Origin: Gammaproteobacteria bacterium
GTDB lineage: Bacteria > Pseudomonadota > Gammaproteobacteria > Burkholderiales > Rhodocyclaceae
Assembly (NCBI GenBank): GCA_029289265.1
Contig: JARFTX010000001.1
Span: 147,849 to 211,848, forward strand
DNA length: 64,000 bases
Direction: 5' to 3'
Shown here: one piece after another, positions 3,747 through 25,226 of the stretch
How the letters are laid out: each line of letters opens with the position of its first letter
Numbering within the stretch: the first letter of the stretch is position 1
The notes under the pieces: model-generated
Database searches by the model: none
What the model saw: the letters and a program-made list of their open reading frames with translations, nothing else
Told to the model about the DNA's origin: nothing
Position numbers and translations under genes: made by a program

Positions 3747-4751
3747 CTACGGCTTTACCGGATGAAACACCCGCGAGATGTACGCGATGATCGCGTCGAT
3801 CTCGGTGCCGGTCAGCACCGACTTCCACGCCGGCATGGAGGTGTTGGGCAGGCCCTCGCGGATCACATGGGCGAGCCGTTCGTGCGTCATGTCGCCCATG
3901 AAGGTTGGGTCGGTCAGGTCGCGCGGGTGGGGCTCCATGAAGCTGCCGATCCAGTTGCGGCCCGTGCCGGTCGCGGCGTGGCAGAAGGCGCAGTTCGCCT
4001 GGTACAGGTGCTCGCCATGCTTCTCCAGCGTCGAAAGACCCTCCACCTGCGGAATCACGTCGTGCAGCATGTATGGGCTCGCGCTGCTGATCGCATCGAC
4101 CAGGGTCGGCGGCTCGCCGGTGTAGTCGCCCGGATCGAAGTGGTTGCGCGGGTACGACAGGGGCCGGCCGCGCCAGGTCGCCGGGCCGGGCTGCTCGAGG
4201 CGGGCGCGGTCGTGGCAGGAGACGCAAGTCGACAGGAACAGCCGCTTGCCGCGCTGCTCCACCGGGCTCAACTGGTCCCACGGCCGGTCGAGCGGGATCT
4301 CGCCGGTCGCGAAGGGAAACGCGATGCGATGCCGCTCATGGTTGGGCCAGCCGTTCTCGACCGTGTGGTAGCGGGTGTTCTCCGCCTTGCGGCGGATGAA
4401 CTCCTCGCGCACGAAATCGACCACCAGCTCGATGTCGCGGTCCGAGATGATGCCCTTGAAGCCCTTCATCGCCGTGCCCGGCTTGCCGTCGCGGGTCGCC
4501 GCGATCATCTGCTTGCGGCTGATCGAGTCCTCGGTGTCCTTCGTGAAATCCCGAGGCGGCGGCACCACGAAGGTCGAGGTGAGCGTCTTCGCGTCGCCCG
4601 AGTAACCGTGGCAAAAATAGCAGCGGAAATTGTAGATGGCGCGTCCGGCCTCGTGACGCTCGTCGAGCTTCGGCGCGTCGGCGGGAGCCGCCCACGCGGG
4701 GGACTGGACGGCCAGGGCCGCGACCAGTCCCACAATCCAACCTCCCCGCAT
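3747..4751 (-). CDS. Triheme class-I-like c-type cytochrome
   Basis: A 334-residue exported cytochrome with a signal peptide (residues 1-22) and three heme motifs: CYFCH (44-48), CVSCH (176-180) and CAFCH (254-258). The first and third modules share a pattern in which CXXCH is followed by a PRD-F/L-T segment (PPPRDFT, PHPRDLT), also found in both modules of the neighbouring diheme protein, so the pair looks built by duplication. Methionines suited to axial ligation (GTAMKGF, NTSMPAW) suggest His/Met hemes. The start ATG overlaps the upstream stop by one base (TGATG), so the two genes form one transcript, divergent from the tetraheme operon. A likely periplasmic electron carrier for the island; substrate and partner are not visible. 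Confidence 0.85.
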   Translation of the reverse strand: MRGGWIVGLVAALAVQSPAWAAPADAPKLDERHEAGRAIYNFRCYFCHGYSGDAKTLTSTFVVPPPRDFTKDTEDSISRKQMIAATRDGKPGTAMKGFKGIISDRDIELVVDFVREEFIRRKAENTRYHTVENGWPNHERHRIAFPFATGEIPLDRPWDQLSPVEQRGKRLFLSTCVSCHDRARLEQPGPATWRGRPLSYPRNHFDPGDYTGEPPTLVDAISSASPYMLHDVIPQVEGLSTLEKHGEHLYQANCAFCHAATGTGRNWIGSFMEPHPRDLTDPTFMGDMTHERLAHVIREGLPNTSMPAWKSVLTGTEIDAIIAYISRVFHPVKP

Positions 4752-5692
4752 CAGTTCGCCTTTGCCGCGGCCTTGGGCGGCGAAACGACGAACTCCTGGA
4801 ACACGAACTCCGACACGTCGGCGATCTGCTGCTCGCTGATGACCCGGTGCCAGCCCGGCATTTCGGTGCCGACGCGACCGAAGTACGTCGCCGCGTAGAT
4901 CGCCGGGCGGTTCAGCGTCGCGCGCGAGCGCTCGTCGCCGAAGTCGCGCGGCACAGGGCGGATGAAGTAGGCGCGCGGCCCCTGGCCGTCGCCCTTCACG
5001 CCGTGGCACTCGGCGCAGTTCGCCATATAGAACTCGCGGCCCTTGGCGACGTCGCCGACCAGGTCCGACGGCATCGGCGCAGCCATGTCGGCCTTCTCGT
5101 GCTCGGCAACCGGCGGGCGCGGCGGAATCGGCGCGGCGATCGGTGGCACCGGGGCGCCGGAGCTGGAACCCGGCGCATGTCCGCCGTGCGGATGGCCTGC
5201 CGGCATCTGCGACGCGCCCGGCTGCGCTGCCGGCTGCTGTGCGCCCGTCGCGGCGCGACGCTCCTCCGGCGACATCGTGCCGGACACGCCGGACACGCCG
5301 CCGAACTGGCCGGTCGCGATCGCCGCCGCGCGGTTGAGGATCTCGGCCTGGATGTAGTCCGCGAGCATCTCGATCTGCTCGGGCTTGAGTCGAGTCTTGT
5401 AGCCCGCCATCGCCGTGTTGGGCTTGCCGTTGGCGATCACGTCGATCAGATAGTCGCGCGGCAGCGCGGTGACCTTGGTCAGATCGCGCGGCGGCGGGTT
5501 CAGGCTGCGTGCCGCCATCGACGCGCCGTCGCCGCGGTCGCCGTGGCAGACCGAGCAGTTGCGGTGATAGAGCACGTCCGCACCGACCGGGCCCCCGGCC
5601 GCAGGCGCGGCCACGGCCGCAAAGCTCGCGACGGCGCTGAATCCGACGATGCCCGCCAGTGCCGCCTGTCTGAAATGCTTGCTGTGATTCAC
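4751..5692 (-). CDS. Diheme c-type cytochrome with Pro/His-rich linker
   Basis: A 313-residue exported protein with heme motifs CSVCH (46-50) and CAECH (226-230). The two class-I-like domains are separated by a flexible linker rich in Pro, Ala, Gly and His (about 140-205, including HPHGGH). Each domain carries a PRD-F/L module (PPPRDLT, PVPRDFG) like those in the downstream triheme protein. The GTG at 5692 is preferred because AGAGG stands six bases upstream and it gives a normal signal peptide; an ATG at 5728 has no clear ribosome site and would add twelve residues. The stop overlaps the next start. Probably a periplasmic electron shuttle. The His-rich linker could bind metal, but that is only a possibility. 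Confidence 0.83.
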   Translation of the reverse strand: MNHSKHFRQAALAGIVGFSAVASFAAVAAPAAGGPVGADVLYHRNCSVCHGDRGDGASMAARSLNPPPRDLTKVTALPRDYLIDVIANGKPNTAMAGYKTRLKPEQIEMLADYIQAEILNRAAAIATGQFGGVSGVSGTMSPEERRAATGAQQPAAQPGASQMPAGHPHGGHAPGSSSGAPVPPIAAPIPPRPPVAEHEKADMAAPMPSDLVGDVAKGREFYMANCAECHGVKGDGQGPRAYFIRPVPRDFGDERSRATLNRPAIYAATYFGRVGTEMPGWHRVISEQQIADVSEFVFQEFVVSPPKAAAKAN

Positions 5693-5762
5693 GAAGGACC
5701 TCTGCGTTGAAAGATTCGCGCTGCCCATGCAAGAACCGAACCGGGTCGGTCACTGCCCGAGG

Positions 5763-5779
5763 TGGCATGTGCGTTGCTT
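5763..5779 (+). promoter_or_regulatory. Sigma54 (-24/-12) promoter candidate, full consensus match
   Basis: TGGCATGTGCGTTGCTT fits the sigma54 consensus TGGCAyrNNNNTTGCW at every defined position, with GG and GC exactly 12 bases apart. Transcription would start near 5789 and reach the tetraheme gene at 6066 after a leader of about 277 bases. A cluster of TTCCC/GGGAA elements lies at 5977-6012, inside that leader. Confidence 0.55.
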
Positions 5780-5802
5780 GAGTCTACCGCTTGCAACACA
5801 TT

Positions 5803-5820
5803 GCCGGAAGCGTTTCCGGC
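5803..5820. repeat. Inverted repeat (7-bp arms, 4-base loop)
   Basis: GCCGGAA and TTCCGGC flank GCGT in the divergent intergenic region between the diheme and tetraheme cytochrome genes. There is no T-run on either side, so a terminator is unlikely. It sits just downstream of the +strand sigma54 candidate and could be an operator or an RNA hairpin in the leader. Confidence 0.3.
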
Positions 5821-5976
5821 AGCCCGGCAGGATTGGAAGTAAAATGAAAATGTACGCGCCCACAGCGGCGATACCGCGATTCTATAGGACTTGCGCCGTC
5901 GCGCGTGCCGCGCCCGAGCGGCCGTGAGCAGCGTGGATTCCACAGGTGTCGGCTCGGTGTGCGGGGGCAGGGCCGG

Positions 5977-6012
5977 TTCCCTTGCGGTCTCGAAGTTGGG
6001 AATCGCGTTCCC
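5977..6012. promoter_or_regulatory. Cluster of TTCCC / GGGAA elements, possible activator site
   Basis: TTCCC (5977-5981), GGGAA (5998-6002) and TTCCC (6008-6012); the last two form a GGGAA-N5-TTCCC inverted repeat. The same half-sites recur upstream of the sigma54 candidates at 8200 and 19748. The 373-base gap 5693-6065 otherwise shows the sigma54 candidate and the inverted repeat, and no gene. Confidence 0.35.
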
Positions 6013-6065
6013 TGTGCTGGTAATTTTCACCCATCGAACCACGAGAAGACGAAGCTGGCTGACGC

Positions 6066-6809
6066 GTGACCCGATTTTCACTGTTTCTCTCCTGGCGGGC
6101 CTGGACGGTTGCGGCGCTCTTGCTGGCGACGGCGGCACCTGTGGCTGCGCAGCGCATCGACATGCGCAACACCGAGCACAACCTCGCGCGCGGCGAGAAC
6201 ATGGAGGTCACCGACTCGCGCCAGATCTGCGTGTTCTGCCATACTCCGACCGAGAACGGAAACGGCGAAGCCACGCAGCCATTGTGGCAGCGCTCGATGC
6301 CGAACGATTTCTCCTTCGTGATGTTCGACGACATCGGCCAGGCCGGGCGCGAGGGCAACGAGTCGGTCGGTTCGCAGTCGATCGCCTGCCTGTCGTGTCA
6401 CGACGCCGCCCAGGCCTTCGGTGTGGCGAACAGCAGCCTCGATCATCCGTTCGGAGTCCCTTACCGGGGCGCGCTGACCGCCGAAGAGCGACAGCGCGCG
6501 CGCGAGGAAGCGCGCCGTGCGGGCAGGCTCATTCACCAAGGTCAGTTCGTCCGATCGGGCGAGGGTTTTCGCGAGGCTTCGCGCGGCATCATCGACAACC
6601 GCCCGGTGTGGTGGGTGTCGCGCGGCGGGCCGACCGCCCAGCGCGGCCGCCTCGATGTCCCGCTCTACGTCCGTATCGACGAGGAGGACCAGACCGAGAT
6701 CCCGTTCGTCGAGTGCGCGAGCTGCCACGATCCGCACAACGTTCAGCCCATGTTCCTGCGCGCCGAGGCCGACGCGAGCGGTCTGTGCATGACCTGCCAC
6801 GTCAAGTGA
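6066..6809 (+). CDS. Tetraheme c-type cytochrome, OmcE-like paralog
   Basis: A 247-residue exported protein (signal peptide to about residue 29) with CVFCH (55-59), CLSCH (108-112), CASCH (217-221) and CMTCH (241-245). It shares the framework of the protein at 8333: EHN or PHN near the N-terminus, ICVFCHTP, ACLSCHD, DHP, ECASCHDPH, and CHVK as the last four residues. In place of HTPH after the first heme it has HTPT, and an extra His appears in LIHQ (about 156), so one distal ligand has probably changed. A central Arg/Glu-rich insert (about 138-175) is predicted helical. The GTG start at 6066 gives the signal peptide; its ribosome site is weak. Followed by an NHL lipoprotein gene 55 bases later. 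Confidence 0.87.
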   Translation: MTRFSLFLSWRAWTVAALLLATAAPVAAQRIDMRNTEHNLARGENMEVTDSRQICVFCHTPTENGNGEATQPLWQRSMPNDFSFVMFDDIGQAGREGNESVGSQSIACLSCHDAAQAFGVANSSLDHPFGVPYRGALTAEERQRAREEARRAGRLIHQGQFVRSGEGFREASRGIIDNRPVWWVSRGGPTAQRGRLDVPLYVRIDEEDQTEIPFVECASCHDPHNVQPMFLRAEADASGLCMTCHVK

Positions 6810-6864: not shown

Positions 6865-8019
6865 ATGAACCGATTTGCCCTCTCCCTCGTCTCCCGTCTC
6901 TCGATCGCTGCTGGCCGCCTGCCGGTGCGGGCCATGGTCGCCGCCTCGGCGCTCGGCCTGATCGCGGGGTGTGCCCAGTTGCCGCAGGAAACCGCTGCGG
7001 GGCCGACAGACTCCGGACCATTGCTTTTTCCGGCGCCGCCGGATGAGCCGCGCTTCGTCTTCGAGCGCACGCTTCGGAGCTCGGCCGATGTCGAGGCCGA
7101 TTCGCGCGATGATGCGTTTCGCAGAATGGTCACCGGCACGCAGCGCGGCGGCTATTTCATGAACAAGCCCTACGCGGTCGCGGTGCACCGAGGGCGCGTG
7201 TTCGTTTCCGACACCGTCGAGCGCAACGTCAAGGTCTTCGACGTGCCCGAACAGCGCTACTTCACGATCGGCGAGCGCGAGCCGGGGCTGCTGGTCAAGC
7301 CGCTCGGCATCGACGTCGATCGCGCCGGCCGGCTGTATGTCGCGGATGCCACCCAGAAGATGGTGTTCATCTACGACCGCGACGGCAAGTTTCTCCGGCG
7401 CATCGGCGGCAAGGACTTGTTCGACCGGATCTCCAGCGTCACCGTCGACCCGTCGGGGGCGCGTCTCTACGTCGTGGATATCGGCGGCGTGCGCTCGGAG
7501 AACCACCGCGTGCGCGTGTTCGAGACCGCGACCGGACGGCACGTGATGGACATCGGGCGGCGCGGCATGGGGCCTGGCGAATTCAATTTGCCGCGCGACA
7601 TGGCAATCGGCCTCGACGGCCGACTCTACGTCGTCGACGGCGGCAATTTCCGCGTCCAGGTGTTCAACGCGGACGGCACCTATCGAGACAGTTTCGGCGC
7701 AGTGGGGCGGCAGCTGGGCAACTTCGCCAGGCCCAAGGAGATCGCCACCGACCCGGAGGGCAACGTCTACGTCGCGGATGCCGCCTTCGGCAATTTCCAG
7801 ATCTTTTCGCCCGACGGCGAGCTGCTGATGTTCATCGGCAACCGTTCCGAGCGCGGCGGGCCGGCGGAGTACATTCTTCCATCCGGCATCGCCATCGACG
7901 ACGATGGTCGGGTCTACTTCGTCGATCAGTGGTTCGCCAAGGTGGATGTCTACCGGCCCTATTCGCTCGGTGTCGAGGAGGGGTTCCTGGTGCCGCGCGC
8001 GCGGACGGCTGCGCGCTGA
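6865..8019 (+). CDS. NHL-repeat beta-propeller lipoprotein
   Basis: A 384-residue protein with a lipobox (LIAGC, Cys36 as the acylated residue) and repeated NHL-type blades such as PLGIDVDRAGRLYVAD and LPRDMAIGLDGRLYVVD, spaced about 45 residues apart from residue 100 to the end; this predicts a six-bladed propeller. The lipid anchor places it on a membrane facing the periplasm or the cell surface. It is one of three such lipoproteins in this island (also 13678 and 14660). NHL proteins recur next to multiheme cytochrome genes in dissimilatory metal reducers, where they are suspected of assembly or scaffold roles; no enzymatic motif is visible. It probably shares a transcript with the cytochrome at 6066. 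Confidence 0.85.
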   Translation: MNRFALSLVSRLSIAAGRLPVRAMVAASALGLIAGCAQLPQETAAGPTDSGPLLFPAPPDEPRFVFERTLRSSADVEADSRDDAFRRMVTGTQRGGYFMNKPYAVAVHRGRVFVSDTVERNVKVFDVPEQRYFTIGEREPGLLVKPLGIDVDRAGRLYVADATQKMVFIYDRDGKFLRRIGGKDLFDRISSVTVDPSGARLYVVDIGGVRSENHRVRVFETATGRHVMDIGRRGMGPGEFNLPRDMAIGLDGRLYVVDGGNFRVQVFNADGTYRDSFGAVGRQLGNFARPKEIATDPEGNVYVADAAFGNFQIFSPDGELLMFIGNRSERGGPAEYILPSGIAIDDDGRVYFVDQWFAKVDVYRPYSLGVEEGFLVPRARTAAR

Positions 8020-8041: not shown

Positions 8042-8086
8042 TTCCCAATATCGGGAATAGTCCCATGTCGATATCGGGAACGGTCC
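8042..8086. promoter_or_regulatory. Candidate enhancer (upstream activator) sites
   Basis: An inverted repeat TTCCC-N6-GGGAA (8042-8057) overlaps a direct repeat with the unit ATATCGGGAA, two bases and GTCC, at 8048-8063 and 8071-8086, 23 bp apart. The block lies about 140-185 bp before the start predicted from the sigma54 candidate at 8200, the usual range for NtrC-type activator sites. The gap 8020-8332 holds no gene. Confidence 0.45.
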
Positions 8087-8332: not shown

Positions 8333-9166
8333 ATGAAGAAGATGTTCAAACAGACGCTGGTGTTTGCAGCGCTCGCGATGGCGAGCGGCTTTGCCGCGGC
8401 GCAGATCACCAATACGCCGCACAACCTGACCTCGACCGGGCCGGGGCCGAATACGCAGTCGAACACCGACCAGATCTGCGTGTTCTGCCACACCCCGCAC
8501 GGTTCGAATCAGAACGTCGAGGCGCCCCTGTGGAACAAGGCGAATACCGCGACGACCTTCACGACCTATTCGACCCAGAACTCGTCGACGATCGACGGCG
8601 CGGTGCTCGAGGTCGGTTCGGTGTCGCTCGCCTGTCTGTCGTGCCACGACGGTACGCAGGCGATGGACAACATGTTCAACGCGCCGGGTAGTGGCACGGG
8701 TGTCGGTGACGGCACCGCGGGCGTGAGCCAGAATTACTCCTGGACGGGCAGCAACGTCGTGACCGGCATCGCCAACCTGGGGGCCGACCTGACCAACGAC
8801 CACCCGATCGGCATCCAGTACTGCGGCGGCGGTGTCAGCGGGACCGGCACTACGGTCAATGGTACCTGCGCCGATGCCGACTTCATCGGGCCGGGCGGCT
8901 CGCAATCGACCCGTCTGCGCACGGCAAACATCAACAATCAGCAGGTGTTCTGGGTGAATGTCGGTGCCGACAACGCGATTCGCAGCTCTACCGACATCAT
9001 TCTCTATACCCGTGACTTCGTGGGCAACGGCGGTTTTGGTCCGTCGGTGGAGTGCGCCTCCTGCCACGATCCCCACGTCAGTGCGGCTAACCGCGGCGGT
9101 GAGATGAACTTCATGCGCGTCACCACGGCCGGCAGCCAGATCTGCCTGGCGTGCCACGTGAAGTGA
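8333..9166 (+). CDS. Tetraheme c-type cytochrome, candidate extracellular filament (OmcE-like) subunit
   Basis: A 277-residue exported protein with a signal peptide (1-23) and CVFCH (49-53), CLSCH (101-105), CASCH (241-245) and CLACH (271-275). It has exactly eight histidines: four in the heme motifs and four others (H30, H56, H157, H248), just enough for four bis-His hemes. The rest is Gly/Ser/Thr/Asn-rich with few charges, unusual for a soluble periplasmic carrier and typical of extracellular material; Cys164 and Cys179 could form a disulfide. Order and motifs (ICVFCHTPHG, DHPIG, ECASCHDPH) resemble the OmcE family of polymerising tetraheme cytochromes. The gene stands alone between a sigma54 candidate and a strong terminator, with AGGGGG six bases before the ATG, which suggests high expression. 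Confidence 0.85.
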   Translation: MKKMFKQTLVFAALAMASGFAAAQITNTPHNLTSTGPGPNTQSNTDQICVFCHTPHGSNQNVEAPLWNKANTATTFTTYSTQNSSTIDGAVLEVGSVSLACLSCHDGTQAMDNMFNAPGSGTGVGDGTAGVSQNYSWTGSNVVTGIANLGADLTNDHPIGIQYCGGGVSGTGTTVNGTCADADFIGPGGSQSTRLRTANINNQQVFWVNVGADNAIRSSTDIILYTRDFVGNGGFGPSVECASCHDPHVSAANRGGEMNFMRVTTAGSQICLACHVK

Positions 9167-9242
9167 CGAGATCTGCGGCATAGCGGTGCTGGCGCGGAGA
9201 GAGTGATTTCGCACTAGACGCCCGGTTGCCGCGCACCTGAAG

Positions 9243-9276
9243 GAGGTCAGGCGGGGAACTCGCCTGACCTCTTTTT
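9243..9276 (+). terminator. Rho-independent terminator after the tetraheme gene
   Basis: A perfect 11-bp stem (GAGGTCAGGCG pairing with CGCCTGACCTC) with a 7-base loop is followed directly by five T. A second small hairpin around a T-rich loop follows at about 9285-9302. It separates the tetraheme gene from the isomerase operon. Confidence 0.9.
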
Positions 9277-9339: not shown

Positions 9340-10389
9340 ATGAACACCCCGATCCGCATCCTGTCCGGCGCGCTGGTCACGGCCGCTGTCTTCTTCAGCC
9401 CTTTCGCACTGGCCGCCGAACCTGCATCTTCGGCCGCCGCCGAGGCCCAGGCGCCGGCCGGTCACCACAGCTCGCCGCCATTCGTCGCCGTGGTGAACCG
9501 TACCGTGATCAGCTCGGCCGAGTTCGAGGCGGCGGCCAACGAGGCCGCGCGGCAGAAGTTCTATCACGGCACCCCCCCGGAGGGCGCTGTGGACGAGTTG
9601 ATCAGGGAAGTGGCGAATCGCATGATCGATCGCCTGCTGGTGCTGGAGGAGGCAAAGCGCCGGGGCGTCGAGGCGGATACCGCGGCCGTGGATGCCCGTA
9701 TCGCCCAGTACGAGCAACGCTATGGCAGCGCGCCGCGCTGGCAGGCGGAGCGCGAGACGATTCTTCCGGTGCTGCGTGAGCGCCTCGAGCAGGACAGCGT
9801 TCTCGACACGCTCGAAGCCGAAGTGCGCAAGGTGGCGCCGCCGGCCGAGGAGGCTGTGCGGGCCTATTACGCTGCGAACCCCGAGAAGTTCACCGAGCCC
9901 GAGAAGATGCGGCTCTCGGTGATTCTGCTGCAGGTCGATCCTTCGTCTGCGACCGCCGTGTGGGACGCAGCCGAAGCCGAGGCAGCGGCCCTGGTCCGGC
10001 GGCTCGAGGCGGGTGCCGACTTTGCGGAGCTCGCGCGCCTGCATTCATCGCACGAGTCTGCCGGGATCGGAGGCGACCTGGGCTACCTGCATCGCGGAAT
10101 GCTGCCCGACGGCATACAGGACAAGATCGACTCCATGAAGCCCGGCGACCTGTCGCCGCCGACGCGCGTTCTCCAGGGTTACGCGGTGTTCCGCTACGAG
10201 GCGCTGGAACCGCAGAAGCACCACGTTTTCGAGACGGTGCGCGAGCGCGCCACGGACCTGCTGTTGCGCGACCTCGCCGAGCAAGCCTGGGACGAGTTCA
10301 TCAAGGACTTGCGCAAAGCGGCACGCATCGAACTCAACACGCAGCGCTATCCGGCGCTCGCGGCGCAAGCAGGGGCTGCCGGGCGGTAA
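9340..10389 (+). CDS. Periplasmic peptidyl-prolyl isomerase, PpiC/SurA type
   Basis: A 349-residue exported protein: signal peptide (MNTPIRILSGALVTAAVFFSP), an N-terminal helical SurA-like chaperone region with EFEAAANEAARQKFYHG, and a parvulin domain at about 185-290 (motifs SVILLQVDPSS, GADFAELARLHS, GGDLGYLHRGMLPDG). Parvulins catalyse cis-trans isomerisation of X-Pro bonds and help fold outer-membrane and secreted proteins. It lies between the tetraheme gene and the beta-barrel gene, so its likely clients are those two. PpiC-type isomerases recur beside filament-cytochrome genes in Geobacter-like bacteria. No good Shine-Dalgarno sequence stands next to the ATG; AGGA lies 13 bases upstream. 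Confidence 0.88.
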   Translation: MNTPIRILSGALVTAAVFFSPFALAAEPASSAAAEAQAPAGHHSSPPFVAVVNRTVISSAEFEAAANEAARQKFYHGTPPEGAVDELIREVANRMIDRLLVLEEAKRRGVEADTAAVDARIAQYEQRYGSAPRWQAERETILPVLRERLEQDSVLDTLEAEVRKVAPPAEEAVRAYYAANPEKFTEPEKMRLSVILLQVDPSSATAVWDAAEAEAAALVRRLEAGADFAELARLHSSHESAGIGGDLGYLHRGMLPDGIQDKIDSMKPGDLSPPTRVLQGYAVFRYEALEPQKHHVFETVRERATDLLLRDLAEQAWDEFIKDLRKAARIELNTQRYPALAAQAGAAGR

Positions 10390-10401: not shown

Positions 10402-12609
10402 ATGCCGAGACGCTTTCACGACCCCGTTGGCGGGACCATGCCTGCGTCGCGGGCAGGATCACGCTCGGAACCCTCACGCACCTGCCTCGCTCGGCTGGTG
10501 GGGGGGATGCTGATCGGTGTTTCGGGGCCTGTTCTCGCCGTCGGCCCAGGGGATACGTACCCCCATGCTGTGACTTTGGCGCTCGCAGCCGGTGGCGATT
10601 TCGGCGTCCGGAACCCTTTCGTGCCTCCCCGGCCGGAAGCGCCGCTGCAATTCGCGCAGGCTGCCGCGCCGGTTGCGGCGGACGTCTCGACCGGGGACGG
10701 TACTGCGCCCCCGGAGGAGCAGCTCGAGTCTGCGACGGCAAGCGAGGCCGGGGGCAGCGGTGAGGGCGGCATCGCGGCCGAGGTCGTCGGCGACGACGAG
10801 TTTCTGCCCGCGGACGAGCTCGACGTACCTTTGCCAGCGGGGCCCCGGCCGGCACCCGGAGCGCAGGTTGCGGTCGAGCGGCCGGCCGGGCGGCAATGGG
10901 GACTTGCACCGGTGCGATGGGGCGGGCAACTTTCGGCCGGCTTGCGCTACAACTGGGCGGACGACGCGCCGAATCAGAACTCGCAAATCTACGAGGGGCG
11001 ACTGCGCGTCAACTCGTACATCATGCAACCGTACATCGCCCTGGTCTCGGGTGATTTCGGCCTCACCTTCTTCCGCTCGCAGGTGGTCGGGGGTGGGGGC
11101 ACCGATTCCGGCAGCTTCACCGGCACCTCGATCAACGGTAACGGTTCGCTCAACGTTTTTCCGCAAAGCCGCTTTCCGTTCCAGGCGACGCTGGCGCTCT
11201 CGGACAGCCGCAGTGATGGCACGCTTACGGCGACCAACACCCAACGCCGCCGGCTGAGTCTGCGGCAGGATTATCGCCCAGCCCTGGGCAATTGGCGTAC
11301 TTCAGGGCAATACGACCGCAGCGAGCTGTCGGGGAGTTTCGGGCGCGACACGGTCGACCGACTGGGGGCCGAGTACTCGATTCAACTCGGACAACACAGC
11401 CTGGGCGCGAACGGATCGTGGTCGAGCAACCGCCGCACCGACGGCACCCAATCGGACGTGATCGGGATCTTCCGACACGGCTTTCGTGCCAGCGACAGCC
11501 TGAGCATCGACTCGACCGCGACCTACACAGGGCAGGAGTTCGACATCGATCGCGCCAATCTGCGCTTGAGCGGCGACACCCGCAGCGCCCAGCTCTTTTC
11601 CTTCGCGTCCTGGACGCCCGCAGATTCGCCGTGGCGCGGCACGGCCAACCTGCGTTTCTTCGACAATCGCAGCACCGTCGGCATCAGCGAGTTCGCCAGC
11701 CGCAGCCTCGGCGGGAGCGCCAGTCTATCGTACGAGGCGAGCCGGAACCTGCGCCTGTTCGGTGTTTTGTCGGCCAACAGCAGCGAATCCGGCGGGGCGC
11801 GCAATGTCACGACGAGCCAGACGGTCGGTGCGAACTACAGCAGCGATACGCACATGTTCGGGCAGTACGGCTACAACTGGTACGGGTCCACGTCCTTCGT
11901 CAATTCGACCGCCTCCGAAGGCGACGGGCAGCGGTCGGTCAATGCCTCGCTCGGCCATTCCGTGCAGCGGACCTGGAACCCGACGGCGGTGACGCAGCTG
12001 CGGGGCAGCTTCAACCAGTCGGTCAATGCCAACCGCAGCTCGGGCGGCGACGCGGTGAGTTCGAGCACGCTCAACAACACGGCGAGCCTGACCCTGCAGG
12101 CGGCGCCGTCCGACCGTATCTCGGGCTTTCTCAGCGCGAGCCTCTCCGACAGCCGCACCTTCGGCGATAACGAGGGGTCGTTCCAGTTGCTCAACACCCA
12201 GTTGAGCGGGAATTGGCGCATCGACGCCGTGTCGCAACTGACGTCGAATCTGACCTGGCAGGTGTCGCGCCAGAGCAGTACGCTCACCGACATCCTCGGC
12301 GCGGGCACCACCACGCGCTCGAATACGAACAACATCTCCGGAAGCCTGGGCTATTCCAACGTGCGCTTTTTCGGCGTCCGAAACCTGCGCTACACCGCGG
12401 ACTTCCGCGCCGACACCAGCCAGTCCTCGCAGCGAGCGGCGGGAGATCCCGATGCCGGCCGCGATCGCGTCAGCCTCGACCTGGACCAGAGGCTGCGCTA
12501 TCGTATCGGCCGCCTCGACACCGAGCTGCAGGCGCGCATCGGGCGGGTCGAGGACCGCAATCAGGGCTTGATCTTCTTCAAGGTCAGCAGGGACTTCGGG
12601 GCGTTCTGA
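10402..12609 (+). CDS. Large outer-membrane beta-barrel protein (porin of a possible electron conduit)
   Basis: About 735 residues. After a signal peptide (hydrophobic part LVGGMLIGVSGPVLA) comes a low-complexity Pro/Ala/Glu region to about residue 170, then some 550 residues of alternating amphipathic strands with Tyr, Trp, Phe, Ser and Asn at turns (LSAGLRYNW, LSLRQDYRP, FFKVSRDFGAF). The C-terminal Phe after aromatic alternation is the usual outer-membrane insertion signal. Size suggests a barrel of more than 20 strands. With the isomerase upstream and triheme cytochromes downstream it could be the porin of a porin-cytochrome conduit or the export channel for the tetraheme protein. It is not recognisably MtrB. 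An in-frame ATG at 10438 may be the true start. Confidence 0.75.
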   Translation: MPRRFHDPVGGTMPASRAGSRSEPSRTCLARLVGGMLIGVSGPVLAVGPGDTYPHAVTLALAAGGDFGVRNPFVPPRPEAPLQFAQAAAPVAADVSTGDGTAPPEEQLESATASEAGGSGEGGIAAEVVGDDEFLPADELDVPLPAGPRPAPGAQVAVERPAGRQWGLAPVRWGGQLSAGLRYNWADDAPNQNSQIYEGRLRVNSYIMQPYIALVSGDFGLTFFRSQVVGGGGTDSGSFTGTSINGNGSLNVFPQSRFPFQATLALSDSRSDGTLTATNTQRRRLSLRQDYRPALGNWRTSGQYDRSELSGSFGRDTVDRLGAEYSIQLGQHSLGANGSWSSNRRTDGTQSDVIGIFRHGFRASDSLSIDSTATYTGQEFDIDRANLRLSGDTRSAQLFSFASWTPADSPWRGTANLRFFDNRSTVGISEFASRSLGGSASLSYEASRNLRLFGVLSANSSESGGARNVTTSQTVGANYSSDTHMFGQYGYNWYGSTSFVNSTASEGDGQRSVNASLGHSVQRTWNPTAVTQLRGSFNQSVNANRSSGGDAVSSSTLNNTASLTLQAAPSDRISGFLSASLSDSRTFGDNEGSFQLLNTQLSGNWRIDAVSQLTSNLTWQVSRQSSTLTDILGAGTTTRSNTNNISGSLGYSNVRFFGVRNLRYTADFRADTSQSSQRAAGDPDAGRDRVSLDLDQRLRYRIGRLDTELQARIGRVEDRNQGLIFFKVSRDFGAF

Positions 12610-12732: not shown

Positions 12733-13329
12733 ATGGTGAAGAGACAGGTCGGCTTGTTGAGGGTTTGGGTTGTGGCCGTGCTGGTCGCGGCCGGTTCGAT
12801 GCCGTCGGCGTGGGCGCAGCAGCGATGGCTGCCGATCGCGGAGGACGGCTTGCGTGATCCGGCGAGTCCGGCGGTGCGCCTGCTGCAGCCGCCGGAAGAG
12901 GCATTGTCCAAGCTCGAGCCGGATACGGCCGGCAATCAGGTCCGCTGGGTCAAGGCGCTGGACAAGGGGCAAATCGAGCCGCGGAGCAGCATCCTGCCCG
13001 GGACCGAGGTCGAGGTGTACGACGGCGACGTCTATCTCAACCTCCGCGGCGGCATGCCGCCGGTGCGCTTCCCGCACCGGGAACATACGCTGTGGCTCGC
13101 GTGCAGCAATTGCCACGACGAGATCTTCAAGAAGGAGCCCGGCTCCAACAAGCTGAGCATGTTTGTGATTCTGCAGGGGGAACAGTGCGGGGTGTGCCAC
13201 GGCGCCGTGGCTTTCCCGCTGACCGAATGCAGCCGTTGCCACAATACGACGCGTGAGGAAGCGCTGGCGGCAGTCGAACGGCAGCAGGCCGAGCGTGCTG
13301 CCGCCAAGGCGAAAGGGGCGGCTCGATGA
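12733..13329 (+). CDS. Triheme c7-type cytochrome
   Basis: A 198-residue exported protein (signal peptide to about residue 29) with three heme motifs clustered at the C-terminus: CSNCH (124-128), CGVCH (152-156) and CSRCH (166-170). Histidines at FPHREH (115, 118) can serve as distal ligands. The module (VRFPHREHTLWLACSNCHDEIF, then QCGVCHG-VAFP, then CxxCH) is shared with the C-terminal halves of the proteins at 20376 and 28669. The N-terminal 100 residues also share a segment (NQVRWVKALDKGQI) with those proteins. c7 domains are small electron-wire modules. The stop overlaps the next triheme gene by four bases. Confidence 0.87.
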   Translation: MVKRQVGLLRVWVVAVLVAAGSMPSAWAQQRWLPIAEDGLRDPASPAVRLLQPPEEALSKLEPDTAGNQVRWVKALDKGQIEPRSSILPGTEVEVYDGDVYLNLRGGMPPVRFPHREHTLWLACSNCHDEIFKKEPGSNKLSMFVILQGEQCGVCHGAVAFPLTECSRCHNTTREEALAAVERQQAERAAAKAKGAAR

Positions 13330-13706
13330 CGGTGCGCTGGCTCGTGGTTGTGCTGGCGGCGATGTTTCTCGCCCTGATCGCGATGCCGGCGCAGTCCGAG
13401 TACGCGGACGTGGTGCTGAACCGCTTCTCGGAGAAGGAAGGGATGCGTCCGGTGGTTTTCCCCCATTGGTTTCACCGCATACGCTTTCGCTGCAAGGTGT
13501 GCCATTCGGAACTCGGCTTCAAGATGCGCGCCGGGGCGAACGAGGTGCGCATGACGGACATCATCGAGGGCCGCTTCTGCGGCATGTGCCATGACGGTCA
13601 GATCGCCTGGGCCGCGGACAACTGCGACCTTTGCCACTCGGGCAAACCCGGCCTGCCCCCGGGAATCTTCGGTGGACATGAAACCTCCGGTCCTGGCCGC
13701 TGGTAG
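13326..13706 (+). CDS. Small triheme c7-type cytochrome
   Basis: A 126-residue protein: signal peptide, then CKVCH (56-60), CGMCH (85-89) and CDLCH (100-104), with distal-ligand candidates in VFPHWFHRIRFR (47, 50). It is the close paralog of the gene at 19948 (same FPHWFHRIR-R-CKVCH block and II-G-FCG-CH-G-IAW block). ATGA overlap with the upstream triheme gene indicates coupled translation, so the two c7 proteins are probably made together, as the paralogous pair 19948/20376 also is. Likely a periplasmic electron carrier between inner-membrane and outer-membrane partners. Confidence 0.87.
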   Translation: MTVRWLVVVLAAMFLALIAMPAQSEYADVVLNRFSEKEGMRPVVFPHWFHRIRFRCKVCHSELGFKMRAGANEVRMTDIIEGRFCGMCHDGQIAWAADNCDLCHSGKPGLPPGIFGGHETSGPGRW

Positions 13707-14655
13707 GCGGCTTGCCCGCCTCGGGCGTGTCGCAGCCTTGGCGCTGCTGCTCGGGGCGTGCACGCTCCCGGCGGGTCAGGTCGTGCCAGCGGGATCGGGC
13801 GTTCCGAACCTTCTGGTGCCGCAGGGCGTGATCGTGGGTGGCTTCGCTGCGCCGGCGCAGCGCGCGTCCGGGTTTCCTGCGGAGAATGCCTTCGTCAAGC
13901 TGATGTATCCGTCGGCCCTGGCAGCCTCCGGCCCCGATCTTTTCGTCGTGGACAGCGGCCTGGGCGTGCTGCTGCGCGTCGATACGATTGCCCAGTCGAT
14001 TGCACGGATCGCGCCGGTGCCGACGGTTCCGGGCGCACGTGTAGCGGCTGGTCCGGACGGCAGCGTATACGTACTGCGGCCTGGACGCGGTTTCGTGCAG
14101 CGCTTTACCCGGGAGGGGATCGACTTGGGGAGTTTCGCGTCGCCCCCGGAAATCCTGCAGCCAGCGGGGTTGGTGATCGAGCCGATGCTGAATCGCCTGT
14201 GGGTCTCGGACAGCGCCGGGGGAGTCTTTGCGTTTCACCCTTCGGGCCGGATGGGTGAGCCGATTGCCGGCCGTGGCGACGGCTTTGCAACCCCCGAGTC
14301 CGGGGCGACGCTCCTGGCTGCGGGCGGGCGGCGTGTTTTCGGAGTCGATCCCGGTTGCCGCTGCCTGATCGAGTTCGATCGCAACGGCGCAGTGATGGGG
14401 CGCGTTGGCGAAGGCGAGCTGATCAATCCGGCCGCGATCGCAGTTGACCCGTTCGGGCGCGCCTGGGTGATGGATCGAGGCGATGGTCGGCTGAAGATCT
14501 TCGACGGCGACCGGCTCGCCTTCCATGCGCTGCCGGGTGAGCTCGGTTTGTCTGAGGTCACAGCGATCGCGATCAGCGATCAGAATGTCTACATTGCCGA
14601 TGGGCCGGGTGGCCGGATCGGCATGTTCGGATTGCTCGCGCCCGCTCGGAGGTAA
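13678..14655 (+). CDS. Propeller-type lipoprotein (divergent NHL)
   Basis: 325 residues with a lipobox LLGAC (Cys28) and about six propeller-like repeats (YPSALAASGPDLFVVD, INPAAIAVDPFGRAWVMD, AIAISDQNVYIADG). The repeats are weaker than those of the lipoproteins at 6865 and 14660, but spacing and position agree. The ATG at 13678 is chosen because GGTGG precedes it and the signal peptide begins there; this overlaps the upstream cytochrome by 29 bases. Cys-rich spot DPGCRCL (about residues 223-229) is unusual for the family. Likely surface or periplasmic scaffold of the cytochrome system; no catalytic motif seen. Confidence 0.78.
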   Translation: MKPPVLAAGRRLARLGRVAALALLLGACTLPAGQVVPAGSGVPNLLVPQGVIVGGFAAPAQRASGFPAENAFVKLMYPSALAASGPDLFVVDSGLGVLLRVDTIAQSIARIAPVPTVPGARVAAGPDGSVYVLRPGRGFVQRFTREGIDLGSFASPPEILQPAGLVIEPMLNRLWVSDSAGGVFAFHPSGRMGEPIAGRGDGFATPESGATLLAAGGRRVFGVDPGCRCLIEFDRNGAVMGRVGEGELINPAAIAVDPFGRAWVMDRGDGRLKIFDGDRLAFHALPGELGLSEVTAIAISDQNVYIADGPGGRIGMFGLLAPARR

Positions 14656-14659: not shown

Positions 14660-15763
14660 ATGACGAGGCAAGTGTCGCGACTGGCTGTGATGGGGGGGCT
14701 GCTGCTCGGGCTGCTCCTGACCGGGTGCGGGACGACCCCGACCACCCCGGCGCGTTTGCACCTTGGCGTGGTCGATGCGCCCGAGGGTGCGCGGATCATG
14801 TGGCCACCGGAGCCGGACGAGCCCCGCTATCAGTTCGCAGGGCAACTCACCGGCGAGGAAAATTTCGTCCGCGATGATCGCGCGGCGCGCGGCATGCGCA
14901 GCTTTCTCGCCTGGGTGGTGGGCCTCTTCGAGGAGGACCAGCCCAATGTGTTGCAGCGTCCGCAATCGGTGATCGGCGACGGTGCGGGCCGCATCTTCGT
15001 GACCGACGTCAGCCGCGGCGCCGTTTTTGTGTTCGACGAGCCGGAGGGCGAACTCAGGGTCTGGGAATTTGCGAATGGACTTCGCCCGTTCGTCGGGCCG
15101 GTGGGGATCGCGCTCGACGGACAGGGCGGCATCCTGGTTGCCGACGCTGAACTAGGCATCGTCGCTCACCTCGACCGCGACGGAAACAGCCTGGAGCCGC
15201 TGGGAGCCGGGCTGCTGCAACGCCCGACCGGTGTCGCCCGCGATCCCGCGACCGGCGAGATCTATGTCGCCGACACCCACGCCCACGACATCAAGGTCCT
15301 GTCGCCCGCGGGCGAGCTGCTGCGCACCCTCGGCCAGCGCGGCGAGGCGCCGGGCGAGTTCAATTTTCCCACCCACATCACCATCGTCGACGGTCGGCTC
15401 TACATTACCGACACGATGAACAGCCGCGTGCAGATCCTGCCGCTCGCCGGCGGCGAGCCGCGCATCGTCGGCGAACGGGGCCTCTTCTACGGCAATCTGG
15501 TGCGGCCCAAGGGGGTCGCGGTCGACAGCGAGAACAATCTCTACATCGTCGAGTCGTATTACGACAACCTGCTCGTCTTCAACGAGGAAGGCCAGTTCCT
15601 GATGCCGATAGGCGGCGTCGGGCACGGCACAGGCCGCTTCTACCTGCCATCGGGAGTGTGGGTAGACGCCTACGATCGGGTATTCGTCGCCGACACCTTC
15701 AACGGAAGGGTGACGTTGTTCCAGTACCTGGGCGGAGCCAAGGCCGACGGCGAAGGGCGTTGA
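14660..15763 (+). CDS. NHL-repeat beta-propeller lipoprotein
   Basis: 367 residues with lipobox LLTGC (Cys23) and clear NHL blades (RPTGVARDPATGEIYVAD, FNFPTHITIVDGRLYITD, RPKGVAVDSENNLYIVE, LPSGVWVDAYDRVFVAD). It shares the segment PPEPDEPRYQF with PPDEPRFVF of the lipoprotein at 6865, so the two are true paralogs. GGAGG stands seven bases before the ATG. It lies four bases after the preceding lipoprotein gene and ends shortly before resB; an operon from 9340 to 19629 is plausible. Function is inferred only from context: assembly or scaffolding of secreted cytochrome. Confidence 0.86.
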   Translation: MTRQVSRLAVMGGLLLGLLLTGCGTTPTTPARLHLGVVDAPEGARIMWPPEPDEPRYQFAGQLTGEENFVRDDRAARGMRSFLAWVVGLFEEDQPNVLQRPQSVIGDGAGRIFVTDVSRGAVFVFDEPEGELRVWEFANGLRPFVGPVGIALDGQGGILVADAELGIVAHLDRDGNSLEPLGAGLLQRPTGVARDPATGEIYVADTHAHDIKVLSPAGELLRTLGQRGEAPGEFNFPTHITIVDGRLYITDTMNSRVQILPLAGGEPRIVGERGLFYGNLVRPKGVAVDSENNLYIVESYYDNLLVFNEEGQFLMPIGGVGHGTGRFYLPSGVWVDAYDRVFVADTFNGRVTLFQYLGGAKADGEGR

Positions 15764-15801
15764 TTTCGGCAGGTCGGTCGCGGACCAGAACGGACGGCTC
15801 G

Positions 15802-16848
15802 ATGCGAGAGGACTTGGCGAAGGACGGGATCGACATCGGGGGAGTCGCCGGCGCGCTCGGCGGCGCGCGACGCGAGGCTGCACCGATGCGTCTGCTTCGA
15901 TCGGTCGCATCGCTCAAGGTCACTCTGGTCCTTATCGCGATGCTGGCCGTCGGGCTGGTGATCGCGTTCCGCTTCGAGCATTCGCGCATCTGGCCGATGG
16001 TGGTGCCGCTCGCGCTGCTTTCGCTGAATCTGATGGCCGCGATCGCGACGAATGCGGTGTTTCGGCGGCAGATGCCGTTGCTGGTGTTTCACCTGTGTCT
16101 CGTGGCGGTACTGTTGCTCGTGTCGGCGGGGCGGCTCACCTATCTCAAGGGCTTTGCAGGCGTGACCGACGGCGCGGTGTTCGACGGCGAATTGGCCGTG
16201 CGGGAGCAGGGGCCTTGGCATCGGGGGGCGCTCGATGAGGTGCGCTTTGCCAGCAGCGGCTTCACCATCGACTACGCACCCGGCTGGCAGCGGGGCGCGA
16301 CGCGCAATCAGGTGCTATGGCAGACCCCGGACGGGCGATGGGAGAAGGCCGAGATCGGCGACCAGGATCCGCTCGTGATTCGTGGCTACCGCTTCTACAC
16401 GACTTTCAACAAGGGCTTCGCACCGACGTTTCACTGGCAGCAGCCGGGCGGGCCCGAGTTGTACGGCTCGGTGCAGTTGCCGTCCTATCCACTCAATGAG
16501 TATTCGCAGGCGGTCGAGTGGATACCGCCCGGCAGCGATGTGGCGGTGTGGGTGATGCTGGACATCGACGAGATCGTGATCGATCCGGACGATTTCGCCC
16601 ATTTTCGGCTCCCCAACGACTACACCCTGGTCGTCAGGGTCGGTGACGAGCGCACCGAGATGCGGCCGGGCGATGCCATTGCGCTGGGCGACGGCACCCT
16701 GACCTTCGATGGACTGCGGAGTTGGATGGGCTATCGCGTGTTCTACGATTGGACCCTTCCGTGGCTGCTCGCCGCCTGCACGGTCGGGGTGTTGAGCCTG
16801 GGCGCTCACTTTTGGCAGAAATTCACGGCAAAACCCTGGGATGCGTGA
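15802..16848 (+). CDS. resB: ResB/Ccs1-like cytochrome c biogenesis protein
   Basis: 348 residues: three membrane helices near the N-terminus (about 37-57, 63-84, 91-110), a large periplasmic domain, and a C-terminal helix (WTLPWLLAACTVGVLSLGAHFW). This is the ResB (CcsB) topology, in a compact form compared with many of 450 residues or more. ResB works with CcsA/ResC to carry heme across the inner membrane and attach it to CXXCH motifs (System II). The next gene is the CcsA partner. ATG 15802 gives the usual cytoplasmic N-terminus. An apparent dedicated maturation pair for the island's 31 hemes. Confidence 0.82.
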   Translation: MREDLAKDGIDIGGVAGALGGARREAAPMRLLRSVASLKVTLVLIAMLAVGLVIAFRFEHSRIWPMVVPLALLSLNLMAAIATNAVFRRQMPLLVFHLCLVAVLLLVSAGRLTYLKGFAGVTDGAVFDGELAVREQGPWHRGALDEVRFASSGFTIDYAPGWQRGATRNQVLWQTPDGRWEKAEIGDQDPLVIRGYRFYTTFNKGFAPTFHWQQPGGPELYGSVQLPSYPLNEYSQAVEWIPPGSDVAVWVMLDIDEIVIDPDDFAHFRLPNDYTLVVRVGDERTEMRPGDAIALGDGTLTFDGLRSWMGYRVFYDWTLPWLLAACTVGVLSLGAHFWQKFTAKPWDA

Positions 16849-16850
16849 GG

Positions 16851-17663
16851 ATGGAGCAAGAGCTGCAAGTACTGTGGGCGGCGATCGTCACCTATGTCGT
16901 GGCCGGGGTGGTCTCGGTGGTCAGCGTGGCGCTGGGCAAACGCCCCGAACGCACGGTGCTCGCGCTGATGCTCGGGGCGCTCGCGCTCCATACCTTCTCG
17001 CTCGGGATCCGCTGGGAGCGCCTGGGTCACGGCCCCTTCATCACGATGTTCGAGATTCTGTCCTCGAACGTCTGGAGCCTGATGCTCGCCTATAGCATCG
17101 TGTATTGGTGGTTACCGCGCATCCGCGCTTCAGCCGCCGTGGTACTGCCCATCATGTTCGTGATGATGGGCTGGCTGATGGTGGTCCATCCCGGCGAAGG
17201 CCATTATCCGGCGACCTATCACACGCCCTGGCTCTACATCCACATTGGGCTCGGCAAGGTGTTTCTCGGGGCCGTGCTGGTGGCGGTGGGGCTGGCCGGG
17301 GTGGTTCTGCTGCGGCGCGCCGGGCTCGGGGTGGCGCGACTCGCAGTGTTGCCAGGCGACAAGCAACTCGACGAGCTGGCGTTTCGCTGCATGGCGATCG
17401 GGCTGGTCTTCCACACGCTGATGCTGATCGCTGGTGCGATCTGGGCCCAGGATGCCTGGGGGCGCTACTGGGACTGGGATCCGCTCGAGACCTGGGCATT
17501 TCTGACCTGGCTGACACTGGTCTTCACCATCCACGCCCGCGTGACCTACCGCATCTCGCCGCCGGTGCATGCGGTGATGATCCTCGGGGTCTTCGTGGTC
17601 GCTTACCTGACCTTCTTCGGTGTGCCTTTCGTCTCGCAGGTGCCGCACCAGGGGGCGGTGTGA
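16851..17663 (+). CDS. ccsA: CcsA/ResC-like heme attachment protein
   Basis: 270 residues, about eight membrane helices, with the tryptophan-rich heme-handling loop WGRYWDWDPLETW before TFLTWL-type helices and conserved histidines in SLGIRWERLGHGP and TPWLYIHIGLG. Together with ResB it forms the System II cytochrome c synthetase. The ATG at 16851 has GGGA nine bases upstream; a GTG at 16845 overlapping the resB stop is possible. The stop overlaps the next start (TGATG), so the oxidase-like protein is translated in step with it. Confidence 0.88.
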   Translation: MEQELQVLWAAIVTYVVAGVVSVVSVALGKRPERTVLALMLGALALHTFSLGIRWERLGHGPFITMFEILSSNVWSLMLAYSIVYWWLPRIRASAAVVLPIMFVMMGWLMVVHPGEGHYPATYHTPWLYIHIGLGKVFLGAVLVAVGLAGVVLLRRAGLGVARLAVLPGDKQLDELAFRCMAIGLVFHTLMLIAGAIWAQDAWGRYWDWDPLETWAFLTWLTLVFTIHARVTYRISPPVHAVMILGVFVVAYLTFFGVPFVSQVPHQGAV

Positions 17664-19003
17664 TGGGTGCCGCGCGGACTGCCTTGCCGAGTGCTGTCGC
17701 GCCGCCGCTGGTGTCCCAGTTCTGGCTCGCGCTGGCAGTCGCTTCCATCGGTTTGGCTGCGCTGGCGGCCGTTGCATTGGTACTTGCCCGCACGCCGCTG
17801 CTCACTGCGCTGATCGCGCCCGATGCCTTTCCGCGGGCGCTGGTCGTGCATGTCAATTTTGCGACGCTGGTATGGTACTTCGCGATGGCCGGCACCCTGT
17901 GGAGCGAGCGCCTGCCGCCTGCCCGATTGCCCGCTGCTACTGCGGCCTTCGCGCTCGGCTTCGGCGGCGCCCTCGGCATGGCGCTCGCGGGCGTGGTGGG
18001 CATCGGTGCCCCGGTACTCGCCAACTATGTGCCTTACCTGAGCAGCGCGGTGTTTGTCGCGTCGCTGGCGTGCTTTGCCGCGGGGGGACTTGCGACGGCA
18101 CTGCTCACGCTGCAACCGCCCCGGGACGAGGCGGAGTGGGGCTTTCTGCTGGCGCGTTGGCCCTTCGTGATGGCGGCCCTTTATCTGGTTGCACGGCTCG
18201 TAGGCGGGGCGACGCTGGTCGAGGCGGTCTGGGGTGCCGGCCACATCCTGCAGTTCGGCTACGTGACCTTGCTCATGGCGATCTGGCTGCGGCTAGCCGA
18301 GCGGACCGGGGGTGAAGGTCTGGCGGTGCGCGCTGCGATTCCCTTGTTCGCGGCGTCTGCTGCGCCGGCGACGCTTGCGCCTGTGCTCTACCTTGCTGGC
18401 GCCCTCGACGGCGTCGCCCTGCACGATTTCCACACCACGCTGATGCGCTGGGCGAACTGGCCTGCACCGGTGGTGTTCGGCCTGCTGCTGCTGGCAAGCC
18501 CTGCCGGGCGGCGCAGCCTCGCCATCGTCGCCTCGTTGGCACTGCTGGGGGTGGGCTGCCTCGCGGGCATGGCGATCGATGCACACACGACCATGGTGCC
18601 CGCCCACTACCACGGTACAATCGGCGCCTTCACGTTGGCGCTGATGGCTGCGGCGCTTGCGCGCATCGGTCCGGCAGGCGCTGTCGAACGGAATGCCAGG
18701 CGAGGGATCCGTTTGCCCTTGGCCCTCTATGCGGGCGGGAGCCTCCTCCTGATCGCCGGTCTCGGCTGGAGCGGGATGCTGGGTGCGCCGCGAAAGGCCG
18801 CGTTCAGCGCCGAAGGCGCCGAGTTGGCCGCGACCCTGTCCGCAGCGCTGACCGGCCTGGGAGGGATCGTTACTATCGGTGGTGTGATCCTGTTCGTTGT
18901 CGTTGCCGTACCTGGAACACTGAGACTATGCATGCTGCATCCGGATCGGGCCAGTCCCGGTCACCCGCCGCGCCACGCCGCGACGTTCGCGGCCGCGCGC
19001 TGA
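17663..19003 (+). CDS. Stand-alone heme-copper-oxidase subunit I-like membrane protein
   Basis: 446 residues, about 12 membrane helices. Histidines fall at oxidase-like places: H63 in VVHVNFATLVW (low-spin heme position), H194 in VWGAGHILQFGY (like the WxxGH CuB site), H254 and H257 in LHDFHTTLMRW, and the pair H315/H317 in VPAHYHGTIGA, which resembles the HFH heme ligands. There is no subunit II or III nearby, and the usual adjacent HH of the CuB site is split. It may be an inner-membrane quinol-cytochrome redox protein or a heme-transfer protein rather than an oxygen reductase. It overlaps the ccsA stop by one base and the next gene by 76 bases. Confidence 0.7.
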   Translation: MGAARTALPSAVAPPLVSQFWLALAVASIGLAALAAVALVLARTPLLTALIAPDAFPRALVVHVNFATLVWYFAMAGTLWSERLPPARLPAATAAFALGFGGALGMALAGVVGIGAPVLANYVPYLSSAVFVASLACFAAGGLATALLTLQPPRDEAEWGFLLARWPFVMAALYLVARLVGGATLVEAVWGAGHILQFGYVTLLMAIWLRLAERTGGEGLAVRAAIPLFAASAAPATLAPVLYLAGALDGVALHDFHTTLMRWANWPAPVVFGLLLLASPAGRRSLAIVASLALLGVGCLAGMAIDAHTTMVPAHYHGTIGAFTLALMAAALARIGPAGAVERNARRGIRLPLALYAGGSLLLIAGLGWSGMLGAPRKAAFSAEGAELAATLSAALTGLGGIVTIGGVILFVVVAVPGTLRLCMLHPDRASPGHPPRHAATFAAAR

Positions 19004-19764: not shown

Positions 19765-19947
19765 TAAGATTGCATTCCGTTTGCAGACTTGGGCGCCCGG
19801 ATCGCCCGTTTCGGTCCGGGTCCGGCGCGGCGTTGCCGTGTCTTTCGCCCGAGGGTACGAAATTTTGCAATGCTCGGCTTGTCAATCAGGGTGCTGCCGT
19901 TCATCCTGATCGACCGCATCGATTCTCGTTCAGATGAGGGTTCAACC

Positions 19948-20376
19948 ATGAAGCAGTTCCAGTGGGCAGCAAGGGTGCGCCGCAGCCTTGTCGGGCTCAT
20001 CTTCGCGGTAGCGGCGGTGACCCTGTGGGTTCCCACCCAATCGCACGCGGAGTTCGGGGATGTCGTGATCAACAACTTCTCCGACGCCTCCGGCATGCGG
20101 CCGGTGATCTTCCCGCACTGGTTCCACCGTATCCGCTATCGCTGCAAGGTGTGTCATGCCGACCTCGGCTTCGAGTTCAAGGCTGGCGGCAACGACATCA
20201 GCATGCTCCACATCATCGACGGACAGTTTTGCGGCGCTTGCCACAACGGCGAGATCGCATGGTCGGTCGAGAACTGCAACCTATGCCATACGGCCAAGCC
20301 GGGCACGCCGACCCAAGTGCACGAAAGCACCATCCAGAAACTCGCGGTGCCCGCCGGTCAAGGAGGGGCCAACTGA
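19948..20376 (+). CDS. Small triheme c7-type cytochrome
   Basis: 142 residues: signal peptide (to about 34), CKVCH (66-70), CGACH (95-99), CNLCH (110-114), and distal His candidates in IFPHWFHRIRYR (57, 60). Paralog of the protein at 13326, with a longer C-terminal tail. Start at 19948 is supported by GATGAGGG upstream and the signal peptide that begins there. The stop overlaps the next ATG by one base (TGATG), so it is coupled to the c5/c7 fusion. First gene behind the sigma54 candidate at 19748. Confidence 0.88.
   Translation: MKQFQWAARVRRSLVGLIFAVAAVTLWVPTQSHAEFGDVVINNFSDASGMRPVIFPHWFHRIRYRCKVCHADLGFEFKAGGNDISMLHIIDGQFCGACHNGEIAWSVENCNLCHTAKPGTPTQVHESTIQKLAVPAGQGGAN

Positions 20377-23800: not shown

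Positions 23801-25226
<1,426 letters not shown>

Follow-up and report, generated by a model that had tools for sequence, protein, structure and literature searches.

UetA of a Rhodocyclaceae Uet-type cluster is a relative of OmcE and a candidate subunit of a cytochrome wire for electron uptake

The tetraheme cytochrome gene at 8333-9166 of the window, a stretch of 64,000 nucleotides of Rhodocyclaceae DNA, is identified from its conserved neighbours as uetA of a Uet cluster. Its product is homologous to Geobacter OmcE, of which it is a clear relative, and is most likely a secreted protein of the OmcE fold that forms an extracellular polymer with an insulated chain of hemes. UetA is a good candidate for a protein wire used in electron uptake, and the concrete claim is that an OmcE-type wire serves in a pathway that has been proposed to take up electrons from outside the cell. 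The Uet cluster unites an OmcE-type subunit, an isomerase, a barrel and propellers with a conduit bearing an OmcE-like module. This conduit and a second tetraheme protein, the uetA companion, may form a new variant of wire. Anchoring, export and assembly of cytochrome wires are called unresolved in a 2025 review, which also reports OmcE homologues across domains (PMC12307469); Uet itself is already in print. A literature search, outside whose scope the key Uet and OmcE papers lay, did not find a link between the two. The OmcE paper is reportedly Wang et al. 2022 and the Uet paper Eddie et al. 2022.

The gene and its product are delimited as follows.

8333-9166, plus strand: uetA-type gene for an OmcE-like tetraheme cytochrome of 277 aa (open reading frame, CXXCH motifs, OmcE match, predicted fold)
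8402-9163, plus strand: mature part of UetA, residues 24-277, following a putative signal-peptide cleavage between AAA and Q placed by eye; used for folding

A phmmer search of UetA against all PDB chains (up to E 1) returns two matches only, Geobacter OmcE (7tfs_A, E 2.2e-31) and 9yuq_N, a 'putative multiheme cytochrome c' (E 9e-27). The phmmer alignment with OmcE spans residues 9-173 and 237-277, thereby covering both ends and leaving 174-236 unaligned, and the match includes non-heme positions. Both PDB proteins carry His at all eight UetA His columns of a 108-sequence alignment. An AlphaFold2 model of UetA, built without hemes from 106 aligned sequences (alignment A5), reaches pLDDT 77 and pTM 0.77. 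In a Foldseek search of 350,542 chains with this model, the sole match at E ≤0.001 is OmcE (7tfs, E 4.7e-8, probability 1.00, TM-score 0.51 by query length). VIA-align superposes 193 of the 202 residues of 7tfs with Z 12.3, rmsd 3.6 and 39% identity; among the 258 Foldseek chains compared in this way, no other reaches a Z of at least 2. The sequences excluded from A5 are L049, L052:3558, L052:2115, L026:7870, L078:7895, L088:7898, L082:8059, L084:71 and L090:2146. An earlier model from the 60 sequences of alignment A3 was poor (pLDDT 55), gave no significant fold match and is superseded. The original prediction had proposed an OmcE-like protein and called for a structure prediction of the monomer. 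The sequence, the ligand positions and the predicted fold all support that proposal, and the heme-free monomer model bears it out in its match to OmcE. The NCBIfam labels DmsE and NrfH and the Pfam MtrC/MtrF domain label came from matches below the cut-offs and were left unused.

The CXXCH histidines of UetA are residues 53, 105, 245 and 275, and the further histidines are 30, 56, 157 and 248. The 277-aa reading frame thus confirms the predicted set of four CXXCH motifs and four other His, eight in all. The mature part (254 aa from residue 24) is rich in Gly, Ser, Thr and Asn (43%) and poor in charge, with 8 Lys and Arg and 17 Asp and Glu, also as predicted. An extra Cys pair, C164/C179 (8822-8869), perhaps forms a disulfide and occurs in 15 of 60 aligned tetrahemes from the best 80 of 545 relatives.

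Relatives were compared in a scan of named genome contigs that covered the best 80 of 545 confirmed relatives (79 loci); these are the nearest relatives, and several of their contigs end inside the cluster. Among the 38 UetA-type relatives in these best 80 of 545, eight His are found in 24, nine in 11 and ten in three, so that 14 of the 38 have one or two to spare. Their non-ligand His amount to 17 in about 8749 residues (0.19%), compared with a His content of 0.8-2.3% in four neighbouring window proteins. The eight-His feature is therefore a property of the family, since His is nearly absent outside the ligand positions. In alignment A3 (60 tetrahemes including the window protein, best 80 of 545), seven of the eight His are present in 60/60 and His56 in 59/60. 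Because an N-terminal H[DN][LFM] motif and the presence of four CXXCH were among the grounds for choosing its rows, some of the invariance of His30 and the CXXCH His follows from the selection. One sequence, from Ramlibacter (L043), has CHTPQ and no Uet neighbours, and for the His counts it is placed among 21 'others' outside the 38. L050:9910, whose first motif is out of frame, and L092:231, with three CXXCH, were omitted from the alignments.

The identity of the gene as uetA rests on its surroundings.

6865-8019, plus strand: NHL beta-propeller protein directly upstream of uetA (sequence match, neighbourhood)
9340-10389, plus strand: UetB-type PPIC/SurA-like prolyl isomerase (sequence match, neighbourhood)
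10402-12609, plus strand: predicted UetC-type outer-membrane barrel (position and conservation), ending in Phe
12733-13329, plus strand: triheme c7-type cytochrome
13326-13706, plus strand: triheme c7-type cytochrome
13678-14655, plus strand: NHL protein (UetH/I-type)
14660-15763, plus strand: NHL protein (UetH/I-type)
15793-17663, plus strand: ResB-like and CcsA-like cytochrome c assembly proteins
19942-21410, plus strand: two more c7-type cytochromes, of which the second has an additional CXXCH domain at its N terminus (similarity and reading)

The described Uet set comprises an extracellular tetraheme (UetA), an isomerase (UetB), a barrel (UetC), trihemes (UetDEG), NHL units (UetHI) and an undecaheme (UetJ) (PMC10734462). 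The window gene is followed by the prolyl isomerase, barrel and triheme c7 genes, the barrel being recognised by conservation and position; Pfam, NCBIfam and PDB sequence searches gave zero matches for it. The conserved neighbours match the Uet set and recur in a Candidatus Tenderia contig (42% identity; order tetraheme, isomerase, barrel, c7, c7), and it is on these grounds that the gene is assigned as uetA. The original prediction makes no mention of Uet.

This arrangement is widespread among the best 80 of 545 relatives. A script count places the prolyl isomerase directly after the UetA-type gene in 35 of 39 loci, with the barrel gene next in 33 of those 35 and an NHL gene no more than 1.5 kb upstream of the UetA-type gene in 25 of the 39. 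A 36th isomerase neighbour is found in L036 if the start of its reading frame is moved; as drawn, the frame begins about 200 nt inside uetA. In many of these best 80, the best matches of the c7 proteins at 19942-21410 come after the barrel gene. The named isolate Aromatoleum toluolicum strain T carries the cluster. Within the family UetA is sporadic, occurring in 17 of 199 genomes searched. The omcS-companion (osc) genes of Geobacter, whose products help OmcS wires to assemble, encode a prolyl isomerase, channel-like proteins and a beta-propeller, protein kinds that are also present here.

Several other genes lie in and around the cluster. Two cytochrome c genes on the minus strand (3747-5728) point away from the companion gene; one is of class-I type, and each has relatives in 20 of 79 loci (best 80 of 545). 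A hydrophobic protein at 17660-19000 has no Pfam match and contains HVNFATLVWYFAMAG, which is reminiscent of heme-copper oxidase subunit I. A 303-aa protein at 21547-22458, also with no Pfam match, has relatives in 23 of 79 loci (best 80 of 545), and 26218-28591 encodes two adjoining proteins with Reg_prop propeller repeats.

Putative regulatory elements flank the gene.

8042-8086, no strand assigned: activator-site candidate, a TTCCC-N6-GGGAA palindrome with repeated ATATCGGGAA
8200-8215, plus strand: sigma-54 -24/-12 promoter candidate, TGGCACG-N4-ATGCT, matching 11 of 12 consensus positions (one mismatch)
9239-9275, plus strand: intrinsic terminator hairpin with a T-rich 3' arm (-31.2 kcal/mol, z -4.5)
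23627-25246, plus strand: sigma-54-dependent response regulator, candidate activator of the cluster

The sigma-54 candidate, put forward in the original prediction, gains nothing from the window itself, where the pattern with up to two mismatches gives 11 matches against 11.1 expected and hence no excess over chance. What speaks for it is recurrence: among the best 80 of 545 relatives, a site scoring at least 10 of 12 is located 165-230 nt upstream of the mature start in 20 of 40 UetA-type genes. It is on this basis, the window alone being insufficient, that the site is accepted. Of the remaining 20, three score 9 at that distance and 17 have no site there; the Tenderia UetA-type gene is one of these 20. 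The strong terminator that had also been predicted is present at 9239-9275, where a simple terminator scan of the window missed it. A hairpin-plus-T scan finds such sites after 13 of 40 UetA-type genes, the window hairpin not counted, against 0.45 expected, and none after the other 27 (best 80 of 545). The 40 rows of the sigma-54 count include L043, which is replaced by L034 in the terminator count. The earlier description of a 'single gene' holds for the transcription unit and falls short for the locus, as the gene sits within a conserved cluster. It is reasonable to suppose that such a unit, with its own promoter and stop, suits a subunit needed in many copies and probably highly expressed.

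TCGGGAA, half of the 8042 palindrome, is present in 13 of the 23 upstream regions compared (best 80 of 545), whereas no 7-mer of a single shuffled set reached more than 7; these regions are partly coding, which raises 7-mer counts (ACATGCT and ACCACTG each occur in 12). A second upstream TTCCC-N-GGGAA palindrome lies at 19638, some 300 nt ahead of the c7 genes that start at 19942, and a third, at 13069, is within a coding region. The response regulator has relatives (E ≤1e-15) in only 6 of 79 loci (best 80 of 545) and is therefore not a fixed part of the cluster.

UetA might instead keep the OmcE fold and act as a surface monomer or short oligomer between an outside donor and the UetJ/UetC conduit. 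The available description of Uet terms UetA merely an extracellular tetraheme cytochrome (PMC10734462), conservation of fold and ligands does not by itself prove polymerisation, and the large multiheme proteins that the genome also encodes could suffice as conduits. Against this, one heme of OmcE takes its His ligand from the adjacent subunit across the interface (PMC12954529, PMC9473688), and the conservation of all eight His, with hardly any surplus, fits a chain in which every subunit donates and accepts one ligand. The separate promoter and terminator also suggest that many copies are needed, and a non-polymeric UetA is accordingly considered unlikely. Far less credible still is an ordinary periplasmic multiheme carrier of the c3/c7/c554 type that resembles OmcE merely in its CXXCH spacing, since the generic Pfam matches that alone pass the cut-off (Paired_CXXCH_1 and Cytochrome_C7) are outweighed by an OmcE match extending to non-heme positions, by the absence of PDB matches up to E 1 other than OmcE and 9yuq, and by a fold search significant for OmcE alone.

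A second OmcE-like tetraheme protein is encoded upstream of the NHL gene.

5763-5778, plus strand: sigma-54 site before the companion gene, 11/12
6066-6809, plus strand: companion OmcE-like tetraheme without the His of its CHTPH motif

The companion matches 7tfs with E 9e-18. Like UetA it contains four CXXCH motifs and a total of eight His, although it lacks one of the ligand His and has one that lies off the ligand positions. It accompanies UetA in 17/17 family genomes that have UetA (199 searched). In all 17, the genome of the window included, the CHTPH His is missing and the other three distal His are invariant. The mature start is untrimmed in L123, L125-L127 and L129 and L120 is trimmed at a second motif, so total His counts across this set are not comparable; the missing His is unaffected. 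Apart from six companions, L043 and a tandem copy in L100, every row of the 108-sequence alignment has this His; it is also absent from a tandem copy in L052. No Met or Lys is invariant among the 17 companions, and hence no replacement ligand is evident. With one distal His missing in 17/17, one heme may be open, either five-coordinate or completed by another subunit. In the named loci companions are recognised in 7 of 79 (L025-L028, L035, L037 and L040; best 80 of 545), and none is seen in the Tenderia contig. Their sigma-54 site scores 11/12 in 4 of 8 loci, at distances varying from 350 to 557 nt before the mature start.

The companion also bears on the value of the histidine count, which the original prediction had used as an argument for polymerisation. 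That argument is weaker than the outcome it led to. Although surplus His are nearly absent in relatives, the companion shows the same totals, four CXXCH and eight His, with one ligand missing. The count therefore cannot serve to test function and was rejected as a diagnostic of polymerisation.

A putative undecaheme component of Uet is encoded in the same genome. Two proteins with 11 CXXCH each (L009:15548-18319 and L010:2094-4571), both with an N-terminal OmcE-like module, lie on the same contig, outside the window and about 24-33 kb upstream of uetA; they are candidate UetJ-type proteins. The first ~270 residues of one of them match OmcE with E 2e-25. Among 21 UetJ-type proteins from the best 80 of 545 relatives, all eight His of this OmcE-like module are kept in 21/21. 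Canonical CXXCH motifs number 11 in 18 of them and 10 in three (L060, L072 and L082). Twelve distal His are conserved in 21/21, one more in 20/21 and another in 17/21, giving 13 or 14 for 11 hemes. Of the 17 family genomes that have UetA, 15 also encode a UetJ-like protein. A separate OmcE-like tetraheme or pentaheme gene lies within the fetched stretch in 12 of 17 named UetJ-type loci (best 80 of 545). At L011 (contig C80, ~4530-6069, minus strand) an OmcE-like pentaheme protein with one extra CXXCH is encoded, and similar proteins occur in L018, L021 and several other loci. The complete OmcE-like module at the N terminus of UetJ-type proteins is a possible seed for the wire.

In the proposed assembly, the prolyl isomerase and barrel would fold and export UetA, and each subunit would supply a heme of the adjoining subunit with a ligand, the N-terminal His30, and receive one ligand itself. 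In OmcS, the N-terminal His is the ligand given to the neighbour, and His30 is proposed as the donor by that precedent. Because each subunit would give one ligand and take one, exactly four distal His are needed, and four are seen. The undecaheme UetJ-type conduit would be the cell-side anchor, its OmcE-like module serving as a ready-made first subunit. The wire would lead electrons from a donor outside the cell to UetJ, which would sit in the barrel, and the triheme c7 proteins would then carry them inward across the periplasm. By analogy with Tenderia, uptake is the likely direction. RuBisCO and narG are present in the genome and fit a nitrate-using autotroph; uptake therefore fits, which falls short of proof.

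A more tentative extension, and on balance a doubtful one, is that histidine book-keeping determines the ends of the Uet wire, which would be a heteropolymer. UetA, with four distal His for four hemes, would give and take one ligand; UetJ, with 13 conserved distal His for 11 hemes, would be the cell-side seed; and the companion, with three conserved distal His for four hemes, would be a tip or branch subunit whose open heme docks a partner His or meets substrate. If true, the start and the end of a cytochrome nanowire would both be encoded.

Compared with the OmcE filament of Geobacter sulfurreducens (PDB 7TFS), UetA is alike in its four CXXCH, its eight aligned His and its predicted fold, and both proteins end two residues beyond the last CXXCH. 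UetA differs in a mature part longer by ~45-50 residues (254 versus 202 in the 7tfs chain) and in the C164/C179 pair, while OmcE has nine His, one more than UetA. UetA is moreover encoded in a Uet-type cluster, and its polymer, unlike the OmcE filament, is inferred. Compared with Uet (UetA-J of Candidatus Tenderia electrophaga and some Gallionella), the tetraheme, PPIase, barrel, triheme c7, NHL and undecaheme components are shared. Here, in contrast, the c7 genes at 19942-21410 are displaced, the two undecaheme genes lie upstream of uetA beyond the window, and an extra OmcE-like companion and candidate sigma-54 sites are added.
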